DNA of 64,000 nt from Fusobacteria bacterium ZRK30 (lineage in GTDB: Bacteria > Fusobacteriota > Fusobacteriia > Fusobacteriales > Fusobacteriaceae). Shown in pieces: positions 34,326 to 38,901 of the stretch. The stretch covers positions 1-64,000 of the forward strand of contig CP102405.1 in NCBI GenBank assembly GCA_024628785.1, written 5' to 3'. The notes under the pieces are model-generated. The model saw only the letters and a program-made list of their open reading frames with translations, did not search any database and was not told the origin of the DNA. Every line of letters starts with the position of its first letter. Position 1 is the stretch's first letter. The translations under genes were made by a program, and so were the position numbers.

Positions 34326-35567
34326 TTAGTTCTCGTATTTTTTCATAGCTATTACTGCGTTATGTCCACCAAATCCTAATGATGTAGATATTCCTACTCT
34401 TATTTCCTTATTTCTTGCTTCATTTGGAACGTAATCTAAATCACATTCTTCATCTGGATTTTCATAGTTGATAGTCGGCGGCATTATTCCTTCGTTAATT
34501 CCAAGGGCTAATATTACACCTTCAATTCCACCTGCTGCTCCAAGTGCATGACCTGTAGCTCCCTTTGTAGATGATACTGCTAACTCTTTAGCATAATCTC
34601 CAAAAACAGTCTTTATAGCTGCTGTTTCCAACCTGTCATTAGCTGGTGTAGAAGTTCCATGTGCGTTGATATAGTCAACTGTAGTCTTCTCTATATCTCC
34701 TTGCTTTAAAGCCATCTCTATCGCTCTTGCTGCTCCCTCTCCACCTGGTCCAGGAGAAGTGATATGATGTGCGTCACAAGTTTCTCCATATCCTACCATC
34801 TCTGCATATATCTTTGCTCCACGGGCTTTAGCCTGCTCTAATTCTTCTAAGATCAATATTCCTGATCCCTCTCCCATTACAAATCCATCTCTATCCACGT
34901 TAAATGGTCTAGATGCTTTAGTTGGTTCATCATTTCTAGTTGATAATGCTTTCATGTTAGCAAAACCTGTGATTGCAAATTCTGTGATACAAGCTTCTGT
35001 TCCACCTGCTATCATAGTATCAGCTTTTCCATATTTTATCATCTCAAAAGCATCTCCAATTGAGTGAGTTCCAGCAGCACATGCTGTTACTATAGTTTTG
35101 TTAGGTCCCTTAGCACCAGTATATATTCCTACATTTCCAGAAGCCATATTAGCTATCATTGCAGGTATTGTAAATGGTGATACTCTTCTAGCACCTTTGT
35201 TTAATAAAGTTTTATGTTGGTTTTCAAAAACTTCCATTCCACCAATTCCAGAACTAACAATAGTTCCTACAGAAGTTGCATTTTCTTCAGTTATCTCAAA
35301 TTTTGCATCTTCCAATGCCATCTTAGCTGCTGCTATGGCAAATTGTGTATTTCTAGCTAATTTCTTAACTTCCTTTTTTTCAATTCCAAAATCTATAGGA
35401 TCGAAGTCAGTTACTTCTCCAGCTATCTTTACCGATGTATTTTCAGTATCAAAACTCTCTATTTTCTTTATTCCACACTCTCCAGCTTTTATTTTAGCCC
35501 AAGATTTTTCTACCCCTGTTCCTAGTGCAGTTATCATCCCTACCCCAGTAATTACAACTCTTCTCAT
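34326..35567 (-). CDS. fabF: 3-oxoacyl-ACP synthase II
   Basis: A 413-residue condensing enzyme that extends acyl-ACP with malonyl-ACP in type II fatty-acid synthesis. Catalytic Cys163 (VTACAAGTHS), His at about 304 (NAHGTSTPAND) and His at about 341 (GATGHALGAAG). Full length. Start at 35567 after GAGGTGAAG. It is separated from acpP by about 215 bases that hold the acpP terminator and a palindromic repeat, so it may have its own promoter. Confidence 0.97.
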   Translation of the reverse strand: MRRVVITGVGMITALGTGVEKSWAKIKAGECGIKKIESFDTENTSVKIAGEVTDFDPIDFGIEKKEVKKLARNTQFAIAAAKMALEDAKFEITEENATSVGTIVSSGIGGMEVFENQHKTLLNKGARRVSPFTIPAMIANMASGNVGIYTGAKGPNKTIVTACAAGTHSIGDAFEMIKYGKADTMIAGGTEACITEFAITGFANMKALSTRNDEPTKASRPFNVDRDGFVMGEGSGILILEELEQAKARGAKIYAEMVGYGETCDAHHITSPGPGGEGAARAIEMALKQGDIEKTTVDYINAHGTSTPANDRLETAAIKTVFGDYAKELAVSSTKGATGHALGAAGGIEGVILALGINEGIMPPTINYENPDEECDLDYVPNEARNKEIRVGISTSLGFGGHNAVIAMKKYEN

Positions 35568-35683
35568 TTCTTCACCTCATAATATTTAAGTTTTTTAAAT
35601 AACTACCTCTAAATTGTAGCTTCCTACCAATTGTTGATTTTCTATTATCACATCTAATCTACAGACAGTTTTTTAAATGAAAA

Positions 35684-35698
35684 ACAACTTGACGTTGT
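35684..35698. repeat. GACGTTGC palindromic repeat, copy 2
   Basis: ACAACTT-G-ACGTTGT followed by ATCCAG, in the fabF-acpP spacer. Outer pairs changed from G-C to A-T in both arms relative to other copies; one inner mismatch. Confidence 0.7.
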
Positions 35699-35736
35699 AT
35701 CCAGTTAACTATAAATCTAAATTTTTATAACTTCTA

Positions 35737-35772
35737 AAAAATAAAAAATAATAGGGGATATAACTCCCCTAT
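35737..35772 (-). terminator. Terminator after acpP
   Basis: On the minus strand ATAGGGGAG-TTATA-TCCCCTAT followed by a T-rich tract. The stem begins 11 bases beyond the acpP stop. Confidence 0.8.
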
Positions 35773-35782
35773 CTATAATCTT

Positions 35783-36007
35783 TTATTTAGCTGCTTCTAC
35801 GAAGTTAACTACATCTTGAACAGTTTTGATCTTTTCAGCATCTGCATCAGGAATTTCGATATCGAATTCTTCTTCGAATGCCATTATTAATTCAACTGTA
35901 TCTAATGAATCTGCTCCTAAATCGTCGATGAAGTTCGCCTCTAAAGTTACTTGATCCGCGTCTACACCTAATTGATCTACTATTACTTCTTTAATTTTAT
36001 CTAACAT
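35783..36007 (-). CDS. acpP: Acyl carrier protein
   Basis: A 74-residue acidic four-helix protein that carries growing acyl chains on 4'-phosphopantetheine attached to Ser34 ([10 protein letters not shown]). Typical [14 protein letters not shown] start. The start at 36007 follows AAGGAGGAAAAATT; an in-frame Met 22 codons upstream lacks a site. It lies between fabG and fabF, the most common order, and is followed by a terminator, consistent with high expression of acpP over fabF. Confidence 0.97.
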
Positions 36008-36086
36008 AATTTTTCCTCCTTGAATTTTAAGTTTACTATATATAATAATAACAAATTTTATACATTTTTTCAACCTTTAAAAGGTT

Positions 36087-36836
36087 TTATTGCATTATCA
36101 TTCCACCGTTTACACTTAGGGTTTGACCTGTTATGTATGATGATAAATCCGATGCTAAAAATAACACTGCGTTAGCTACATCTTCTGGAGTTCCCATTGT
36201 TTCTAAAGGAACATTTCTCATCATCATCTCTTTAGCTTCCGGGCTTAAAACATCAGTCATTTCTGATTGGATATATCCTGGAGCTATAGCATTTACTCTT
36301 ACACTTCTTTTAGCAGCTTCTCTAGCTAAAGATTTAGTCATTCCGATTAATCCTGCTTTTGAAGCCGAGTAGTTTACCTGACCTGCGTTACCCATAAGTC
36401 CTACTACTGAAGCCATATTGATTATGCTTCCTGTTCTTTGCTTAGTCATCGTTCTATAAAATGCTTGAGTTGTATTGAAAGCACCCTTTAAATTGATATC
36501 AATAACTAGATCAAAATCAATTTCCTTCATTCTCATGAATAACCCGTCTCTTGTGATCCCGGCATTGTTTACCAATACATCTACTCTTCCAAATTTTTCC
36601 ATTGTAGCTTTAGCTAACGCTACACAACTTTCAGAATTTGTAACATTACTTTCAACAAATAATGTTTCTACATTGTATTTTTCAGCTATTTCTTTAGCTG
36701 TAGCTTCTCCTGCTTCTACTAATATATCTGTAATTACGATATTGGCTCCTGCTTCTGCTAATTTTTCAGCAACAGATTTACCTATCCCTCTACTTGATCC
36801 AGTAATTACCGCAACTTTATCTTTTAAATTAATCAT
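36087..36836 (-). CDS. fabG: 3-oxoacyl-ACP reductase
   Basis: A 249-residue NADPH-dependent SDR enzyme that reduces 3-oxoacyl-ACP. TGSSRGIG at 12-19 (cofactor turn), NNAG, the catalytic Ser-Tyr-Lys set (NMASVVG; VNYSASKAG, Tyr at about 154, Lys 158) and the C-terminal ITGQTLSVNGGM. Start at 36836; its GAGGAGG ribosome site lies in spacer DNA that is itself a decayed copy of the fabD 3' end. Confidence 0.97.
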   Translation of the reverse strand: MINLKDKVAVITGSSRGIGKSVAEKLAEAGANIVITDILVEAGEATAKEIAEKYNVETLFVESNVTNSESCVALAKATMEKFGRVDVLVNNAGITRDGLFMRMKEIDFDLVIDINLKGAFNTTQAFYRTMTKQRTGSIINMASVVGLMGNAGQVNYSASKAGLIGMTKSLAREAAKRSVRVNAIAPGYIQSEMTDVLSPEAKEMMMRNVPLETMGTPEDVANAVLFLASDLSSYITGQTLSVNGGMIMQ

Positions 36837-36839
36837 TCT

Positions 36840-36936
36840 ACAAATACCTCCTCAATTGTTTTTCTAGCTAATCTTTTTCAACATTTTCTGATCCTAACTT
36901 CATAAAATTTAGTTACTCCAGTATCCCTTAGTTACA
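36840..36936 (-). pseudogene. Decayed duplicate of the fabD 3' end
   Basis: The fabD-fabG spacer translates, in one minus-strand frame, as LRDTGVTKFYEVRIRKC, a stop, then KRLARKTIEEVFVE. The true FabD C-terminus reads LRDTGVTKFYEIGPGKVLKG, then LVRKIDKTLEVVNVESI. The match is clear at both DNA (36901-36931 against 37029-37057) and protein level, so a segment of about 95 bases was tandemly duplicated and then mutated. It now supplies the fabG ribosome site. Confidence 0.85.
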
Positions 36937-36942
36937 AAGGTT

Positions 36943-37836
36943 TTATATTGATTCGACATTTACCACTTCTAAAGTTTTATCTATCTTCCTAACCAATCCT
37001 TTCAATACTTTTCCAGGACCAATCTCGTAGAATTTAGTCACTCCAGTGTCTCTTAATTTTTCAATTATTTCAACCCATCTTACAGGACCAAAAGTTTGGT
37101 GGTATAATTCTTCCTTTATTTTTTCAGCATCCTTTAAAAACTCTACTCCTGTATTAGATAATACTTCAATATTTCCTTCTTTAAAGTTAAATTTATCAAA
37201 ATCAGCTTTTAATTTGTCTCCTGCAGGTTTCATAAGTGATGAATGAAATGGTCCGGATACAGCTAAAACCATAGCTCTTCTAGCACCAGCTTCTTTTAAC
37301 TCTTCACAGGCTGCATCAATAGCATCTTTTGATCCTGCTATTACAGTCTGCTTAGGCTCATTGTAGTTTACAGCTTCTACTATTCCATCTATATTTTTAC
37401 AGATTTCCTCAATTTTAGCTGATTCCAATCCAATGATAGCTGCCATAGTCCCGTCTACTTCTCCTGAAACCTCATTCATAATCTCCCCTCTAAGGGCAGT
37501 TAATCTTACTGTATCAAAAGTTGATAATACGTTAGCAGCTCCCAAGGCTGAGTACTCACCCAGTGAATGTCCTGCCACATAATCTGCTTCGATTCCGCTG
37601 TCCTTTAATAACTTCGTCAATACTAACGACATAGTTACTATAGCAGGCTGCGTATATTTTGTTTGTTTTAATTTCTCCTCAGGTCCATTAAACATAGTTT
37701 CTTTTAAGTCTAATTCTAAGCTCTCAAAAATTTCATCGAAATATTTTTTAGCCATCTCATTTGTTTCGTATAATTCCTTACCCATTCCAACATATTGTGT
37801 ACCTTGTCCTGGATATATAAACGCTATTTTCGACAT
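36943..37836 (-). CDS. fabD: Malonyl-CoA:ACP transacylase
   Basis: A 297-residue enzyme that moves malonyl from CoA to ACP. Catalytic Ser91 in GHSLGEYSA, QGTQ at 11-14 (oxyanion), and the GPFHSSLMKP His motif (His at about 196). The start at 37836 follows GAGGAGGG; an ATG six codons earlier lies upstream of that site. A promoter with two operator-like palindromes lies directly upstream (37853-37894), so fabD-fabG-acpP can be transcribed apart from plsX-fabH. Confidence 0.96.
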   Translation of the reverse strand: MSKIAFIYPGQGTQYVGMGKELYETNEMAKKYFDEIFESLELDLKETMFNGPEEKLKQTKYTQPAIVTMSLVLTKLLKDSGIEADYVAGHSLGEYSALGAANVLSTFDTVRLTALRGEIMNEVSGEVDGTMAAIIGLESAKIEEICKNIDGIVEAVNYNEPKQTVIAGSKDAIDAACEELKEAGARRAMVLAVSGPFHSSLMKPAGDKLKADFDKFNFKEGNIEVLSNTGVEFLKDAEKIKEELYHQTFGPVRWVEIIEKLRDTGVTKFYEIGPGKVLKGLVRKIDKTLEVVNVESI

Positions 37837-37852
37837 AGTCCCTCCTCTATTC

Positions 37853-37866
37853 ATAACACCTGTAAT
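37853..37866 (-). promoter_or_regulatory. Operator-like site O2 of fabD
   Basis: ATAACACCTGTAAT (+ strand), a near copy of O1, touching the -10 box of the fabD promoter on its downstream side. It matches motifs at the tetR and fadL promoters. Confidence 0.6.
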
Positions 37867-37894
37867 TTATATCATATAACACCTGTTATGTCAA
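37866..37894 (-). promoter_or_regulatory. Promoter of fabD-fabG-acpP
   Basis: On the minus strand TTGACA (37889-37894), a 17-base spacer and TATAAA (37866-37871), about 30 bases before the fabD start. Confidence 0.8.
37876..37889 (-). promoter_or_regulatory. Operator-like site O1 of fabD
   Basis: ATAACA-CC-TGTTAT, a perfect palindrome lying in the spacer between -35 and -10 of the fabD promoter, where a bound repressor would block RNA polymerase. Centre-to-centre distance to O2 is 23 bases. Confidence 0.65.
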
Positions 37895-37905
37895 ATTTTG
37901 TATGA

Positions 37906-38901
37906 TTAATATGCCCATTTCATGACGCATGATGCATATGTTAATCCAGCTCCAAAGCCTACCAATGCTATATTATCACCTTTTTTAATCATCCCTTTTT
38001 CCACTGCTTCTCCCAATGCTAAACCTACAGAAGCTGCTGAAGTATTCCCGTATTTATCTAAGTTGATTACAAACTTTTCTGTCGGGAATTTCAATTTTTT
38101 CGCTGCGGAACTAATAATCCTCATATTAGCTTGATGCGGCACAATCAATTCTAATTCATCTATACCTATCCCTGTATTTGCCAATACTTTTTCCACTGCT
38201 CCAGGCATTGCTTTTACAGCAAATTTAAAAACTTCCGGCCCTTTCATCTTAAGGTAGTGAGATCTATTATCTACAGTTTCATGGGTCGCAGGAGCTCTAG
38301 ATCCACCTGCCGGGATAACCAACACATCATCCAAGTCTCCGTCAGCACCTAGGTGAGAACCTATAATACCATGACCTTCTTCTACTTCTCCTAACACTGC
38401 TGCTGCTGCTCCATCACCAAACAACACACAGGTATTTCTGTCTTCCCAATCTAAGATTCTTGAGAACACCTCTGCACCTATTACCAACACTTTTTTATAC
38501 ATACCAGTAGCTATAAAGTTTCCTCCAGCTTCTAACCCGTATACAAAACCACTACAAGCCGCACCTAAATCAAAGGCCGCTGCATGGTGTGCACCTAACC
38601 TTTTTTGTAATATAGCCGATACAGATGGAGTAAAATAATCCAGTGTCATGGTAGCCACTACTATTAGATCTAATTCCTCTGCCTTTGTATTAGATGATTC
38701 CAAAGCTTTCACTGCTGCATTATAGGCAAGATCTGAGGTAGCTTCGTTTTCCGCAGCTATCCTTCTCTCCTTTATCCCAGTCATTTTTTGTATCCACGCA
38801 TCTGAAGTATCCACTATTTTTTCCAAATCAAAATTTGTCATTATCTTTTCAGGGACATAGGTTCCTATTCCCAATATTCCAAAACTTTTAATAGTTTTCA
38901 T
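37906..38901 (-). CDS. fabH: 3-oxoacyl-ACP synthase III
   Basis: A 331-residue enzyme that starts fatty-acid synthesis by condensing acetyl-CoA (or a branched primer) with malonyl-ACP. Catalytic Cys116 (DLGAACSGFV), His in VPHQANMRI (about 248) and Asn in NTSAASVGLAL (about 278). The start at 38901 follows GGAGG at five bases; a Met four codons earlier lies within that site. The start overlaps the end of plsX by 14 bases. Confidence 0.96.
   Translation of the reverse strand: MKTIKSFGILGIGTYVPEKIMTNFDLEKIVDTSDAWIQKMTGIKERRIAAENEATSDLAYNAAVKALESSNTKAEELDLIVVATMTLDYFTPSVSAILQKRLGAHHAAAFDLGAACSGFVYGLEAGGNFIATGMYKKVLVIGAEVFSRILDWEDRNTCVLFGDGAAAAVLGEVEEGHGIIGSHLGADGDLDDVLVIPAGGSRAPATHETVDNRSHYLKMKGPEVFKFAVKAMPGAVEKVLANTGIGIDELELIVPHQANMRIISSAAKKLKFPTEKFVINLDKYGNTSAASVGLALGEAVEKGMIKKGDNIALVGFGAGLTYASCVMKWAY

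Follow-up and report, generated by a model that had tools for sequence, protein, structure and literature searches.

A stray copy of the 3' end of fabD lies in the spacer between fabD and fabG in the window, the whole 64,000-nucleotide stretch of Fusobacteria bacterium ZRK30 that was analysed. With a probability of roughly 0.8, we favour a reading in which a slip placed this fragment in an old spacer on the stem shared by the window's genome (G000) and the genome closest to it (G007), sparing the old fabG ribosome-binding site, and the copy then decayed. The gene names used here (fabD, fabG and the others) are those that we take to apply from recognition of the proteins and from operon order. 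The features are as follows.

36087 to 36836, minus strand: fabG (3-oxoacyl-ACP reductase), an open reading frame, apparently vertically inherited in G000.
36837 to 36863, minus strand: fabG leader, probably native, with GAGGAGG at 36847–36853; AAAACAATTGAGGAGG is its ribosome-site block (identity in G007 and, for the core, in G006; shuffles).
36861 to 36933, minus strand: copy of the fabD 3' end, decaying and frameshifted; its LRDTG frame runs into a stop (alignment, shuffles, genome control and codon states).
36934 to 36942, minus strand: stretch after the fabD stop, AACCTTTGT, not fabD-like and probably the start of the old spacer (alignment boundary).
36943 to 37836, minus strand: fabD (malonyl-CoA:ACP transacylase), in the open reading frame 36943–37854; likely ATG at 37836 after AGAGGAGGGACT; stop TAA at 36943–36945.
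36986 to 37058, minus strand: source segment in the fabD 3' end (local alignment).

The ATG of fabD at 37836 was chosen by inspection within its open reading frame, and the first three bases of the fabG leader overlap the end of the copy alignment.

A local alignment matches the spacer at 36861–36933 to the 3' end of fabD at 36986–37058, in the orientation of the adjacent source gene and with similarity beyond chance. The score of the spacer (36837–36942) against fabD was 43, and 2000 dinucleotide-preserving shuffles gave a mean of 22.2 (sd 3.0) and a maximum of 37. When the spacer was compared with the last 150 bases of fabD from G000, G007, G002 and G006, the observed score was reached by 0 of 2000 shuffles under both scoring schemes. 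A control on 464 kb of the 3.6 Mb of the window's own genome, with open reading frames from a simple caller and each pair shuffled 60 times, covered all genes bordered at their 3' end by a spacer of 50–300 bases. The fabD copy ranked first of the 183 spacer/gene-tail pairs (z 9.0), and the runner-up (z 5.3; L134, 8636–8797) was an A-rich low-complexity match, with further rows at z 4.2 and below. fabD itself gave a single match in the genome at E ≤ 0.001. The sequence-only reading had taken the spacer for a tandem copy of the fabD 3' end in decay. It was correct as to the copy, whose alignment with fabD is far better than that of shuffled sequence; a simple tandem duplication would not account for it without a further step.

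It is barely credible that the resemblance arose by chance. AT-rich sequence does yield frequent short matches, and a search of the genus returned a 37-base, 86% match to 36853–36889 on another G005 contig (L111). That match falls within a long open frame that otherwise bears no resemblance to fabD; it was taken as chance and not as a fabD relic, and it serves as a warning that short AT-rich matches arise easily. The same search also returned two further short matches in G006 (C17 and C24). Against chance stand the shuffles and the rank in the genome control, together with the 11 consecutive codons LRDTGVTKFYE and the fact that the matching part adjoins its source in two genomes, of which G007 shares descent with G000 and is not an independent case.

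The minus-strand frame in which LRDTGVTKFYE is followed by a stop had been noticed from the letters alone, and its 11 codons do match fabD. There are seven differences from the window's fabD in these 33 bases, all of them synonymous by our reading. Small indels follow and then the stop in that frame, the copy being frameshifted. The recognisable copy is ~73 bases long and not the ~95 bases first proposed. It ends near RK, and the last 13 codons and stop of fabD are absent from it in both G000 and G007. A plain tandem duplication would be expected to carry these in its second copy, so it would require a subsequent deletion, unless the insertion was templated. The copy also contains an 11-codon micro-ORF (MKLGSENVEKD; 36868–36903, minus strand), which G007 lacks and which was not retained as a functional element.

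Eight Psychrilyobacter genomes were compared, including the window's own, and seven of them gave a fabD match, the exception being G001 (76% complete). The fabD fragment was found in two of the seven comparable genomes, G000 and G007. The distance from the fabD stop to the fabG ATG is 106 bases in G000, 87 in G007, 55 in G006, and 10 in each of G002 to G005. The spacer shuffle tests covered G000, G007 and G006, the 10-base spacers of the other four being too short. The G007 copy is shorter and more decayed than that of G000. Against its own fabD, 0 of 2000 shuffles reached the score of the G007 spacer under both schemes; its similarity to distant fabD tails is weaker, with up to 33 of 2000 shuffles reaching the score (against G006). 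The 55-base spacer of G006 showed no fabD similarity: shuffles reaching its score numbered 416 of 2000 against G000 fabD and 1658 of 2000 against its own under the first scheme, and 129 and 1197 of 2000, respectively, under the second. This copy-free spacer probably represents the ancestral state. The AACCTTTGT stretch at 36934–36942 is kept in G007 with one change and is probably homologous to the start of the G006 spacer.

The ribosome-binding site of fabG appears to have a separate history. The sequence-only reading placed this site within the duplicate, as a translation signal made from coding DNA, and took the KTIEEVF part of the spacer as the end of fabD; neither claim was supported. The 27-base block that carries GAGGAGG (36837–36863) did not outscore shuffles when aligned with its own fabD tail (under the two schemes, 1051 and 618 of 2000 reached its score), and the KTIEEVF part is not detectably fabD. 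The block is identical in G007 (27/27), its core AAAAACAATTGAGGAGGTA is identical in G006 (19/19), where no copy is detectable, and the copy looks younger than the split from G006. The site is probably older than the copy, which would have landed upstream of an old fabG leader. On the simplest reading, the resemblance of KTIEEVFVE to KTLEVVNVE is chance or a purine-rich likeness, and a very old common origin of the block and fabD is not favoured.

A rival explanation holds that the duplicate runs to the fabG start and that the ribosome site came, no later than the genus ancestor, from fabD coding DNA (KTLEVV to KTIEEV), with G006 having lost most of the copy. By reading, a 9-base deletion would bring the frame KTIEEVFVE, with a TGA overlapping the fabG ATG, into line with KTLEVVNVE of fabD. 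With permissive scoring (1/-1, gap opening -2), one alignment of the whole spacer also reaches the fabG start, at a score of 32 compared to 30 for the front alone, and the G006 spacer has TTAAGG and TTAG flanking the missing part. We nevertheless consider this explanation unlikely, given the shuffle results for the block, the G006 spacer that is not fabD-like even in its best comparison (129/2000, against G000 in the second scheme), and two codon states in the copy that are otherwise found in G000 and G007 only. G006, moreover, already comes close to an outgroup that has this ribosome-site block in a spacer clean of fabD sequence. It is very improbable that the entire fabG leader of Psychrilyobacter, together with its ribosome site, derives from an old duplicate of the fabD 3' end that was recruited in the genus ancestor, and that selection kept only the ribosome-site part in G006.

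The age of the copy can be estimated from its codons, and the comparison of the same spacer in relatives that had been proposed for dating was informative in this respect. The copy has ACT and GGA, as does the fabD of G000 and G007 only; these states are absent in the fabD of G002 to G006. It also keeps AGG, GAT and TAT at codons where the fabD of G000 and G007 has AGA, GAC and TAC. At these codons G002 to G005 have AGG, GAT and TAT, and G006 has AGA, GAT and TAT, which leaves the direction of the AGG change ambiguous. This mixture results in a higher score of the copy against the fabD tail of G002 (69) than against its own (43), and it suggests that copying took place on the stem of the G000/G007 pair, a dating that rests on five codons in ~61 aligned bases. 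In a tree of fabD the two remnants form a group (76), which attaches with weak support (41) between G000/G007 and the remaining genomes, and the G000 remnant alone falls beside G003 at 40; the tree thus agrees with a stem origin in direction, not with force. In a protein tree of eight neighbouring genes, G006 falls outside the other six at 58, G000 and G007 group at 90, and G002 to G005 do not form a single clade (branches of 39–44). Within the genus, branch support was low (36–52) in a nucleotide tree built with outgroups from six concatenated genes.

The better match to G002 fabD could also be read as the scar of an allele replacement, in which recombination left the end of a fabD from another lineage at the joint, an event related to an exchange of fabG in G002 to G005. 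Recombination has been active here, as seen from the discordant fabG of those genomes. The window's fabG is 99% identical to that of G007, 95% to that of G006 and 70–72% to those of G002 to G005 (L064, L065, L068 and L112), whereas the neighbouring genes found in these four are 88–99% identical to the window's. The dS of this divergent fabG is 1.5–2.1 in three pairs computed against G000 or G007; all dS values given here refer to chosen genome pairs. We consider such a scar decidedly unlikely, however, since the copy has ACT and GGA, which G002 to G006 lack, and no donor was found. The fabG of G000 and G007 compared to that of G006 gave a dS of 0.54–0.59, within the range of the neighbouring genes (0.39–1.02, with rpmF at 0.12 left out), and there is thus no sign of fabG import in G000 or G007. 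A fragment arriving together with an imported fabG was rejected, as fabG in these two genomes looks vertical.

The divergent fabG of G002 to G005 is a separate matter. In the trees it has a long branch to itself (100), and in the protein tree its position next to the native Psychrilyobacter fabG has a support of only 58. Outside G002 to G005, its best FabG match among 96 genomes of the order is the native Psychrilyobacter protein (72–73%), with the next at 67%. In these four genomes the native gene was probably replaced in place by the fabG of an unsampled relative. Near the fabG stop, G003 switches to the G000 type, with 49 and 50 of 50 columns matching in two 50-column bins compared to 46 and 44 for G002. 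Gene displacement in situ is a known concept within operons; it fits the divergent fabG of these four genomes but leaves the fabD fragment of the window unexplained.

Returning to a slip on the stem of G000 and G007, the event would have occurred during replication or repair and copied ~73 bases of the fabD 3' end into a short pre-existing spacer. The slip may have been a switch of template, or it may have been a short tandem duplication whose second copy later lost its end; a one-step switch into the spacer and back would account for the copy as well as duplication plus deletion. The insertion would have separated the start of the old spacer from the old fabG ribosome-binding site, leaving the latter in place. 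By reading, TTAAGG and TTAG stand in the G006 spacer at the positions of the two ends of the copy and are possible microhomologies at the joints; the same arrangement is also readable as the scar of a deleted older copy. In Salmonella, confirmed spontaneous rearrangements are reported to have had short homologous repeats at their endpoints (PMC3411829). The present event is likewise local and may also have involved short stretches of shared sequence at its joints, but it is old, small and decayed and is recognised by comparison, and its joints are approximate.

After insertion the copy would have drifted as untranslated DNA, gaining substitutions and a frameshift, with a net loss of ~19 bases in G007. 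Seven of 59 aligned columns, in addition to gaps, differ between G000 and G007 in the front of the spacer, and none of the 27 in the ribosome-site block. The first figure, a raw count of differences set beside a fabD dS of 0.25, is roughly what drift might give. Against free decay, the first 11 codons have only synonymous differences from fabD and are more conserved than expected. None of the eight promoter-like sites listed by a 2-kb scan (shuffles averaged 8.2) lies within 36837–36942, and no terminator-like site was found there. The fold of the spacer is not stable (z -0.18), and no Rfam match was found in 35500–38200. The copy seems functionless, an ordinary mutational fossil.

Non-functional coding fragments are known to persist in bacterial spacers as gene remnants. 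The fragment described here likewise persists in a spacer, but its source is intact and adjacent, making it the copy of a fragment and not a dead gene. It provides a small and roughly datable example of how the spacer of a core operon may grow: a coding fragment lands, the ribosome site is untouched and the fragment decays. It also illustrates that the coding-like look of a spacer is no proof of a coding origin for its translation signal; the example is of modest wider value.

Several further observations were made in the same operon. In the fabH-fabD spacer (37855–37905, minus strand), an operator-like inverted repeat, ATAACAGGTGTTAT, was read between TTGACA and TATAAA, which are 17 apart; this pair was not among the promoter-like sites listed by the 2-kb scan. 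A second copy, TTACAGGTGTTATG, lies downstream of ATAACAGGTGTTAT, and the arrangement is present in seven of seven genus members with single changes in some. ATAACANNTGTTAT occurs at only three places in the genome, and a backward control pattern at none. For acpP and fabF (34326–36007, minus strand), G000 is nearly as close to G002 (dS 0.10 and 0.20) as to G007 (0.07 and 0.17), unlike for fabD and fabH, and recombination between species in this downstream half of the operon is possible. A promoter-like TTGAAA-17-TATTAT precedes acpP at 36045–36073 (minus strand), with similar arrangements seen by eye in G016, G020, G011 and G009. Just after the fabG stop, the palindrome AACCTTTTAAAGGTT is present in G000, G007, G003 and G006, and has one base changed in G002, G004 and G005.
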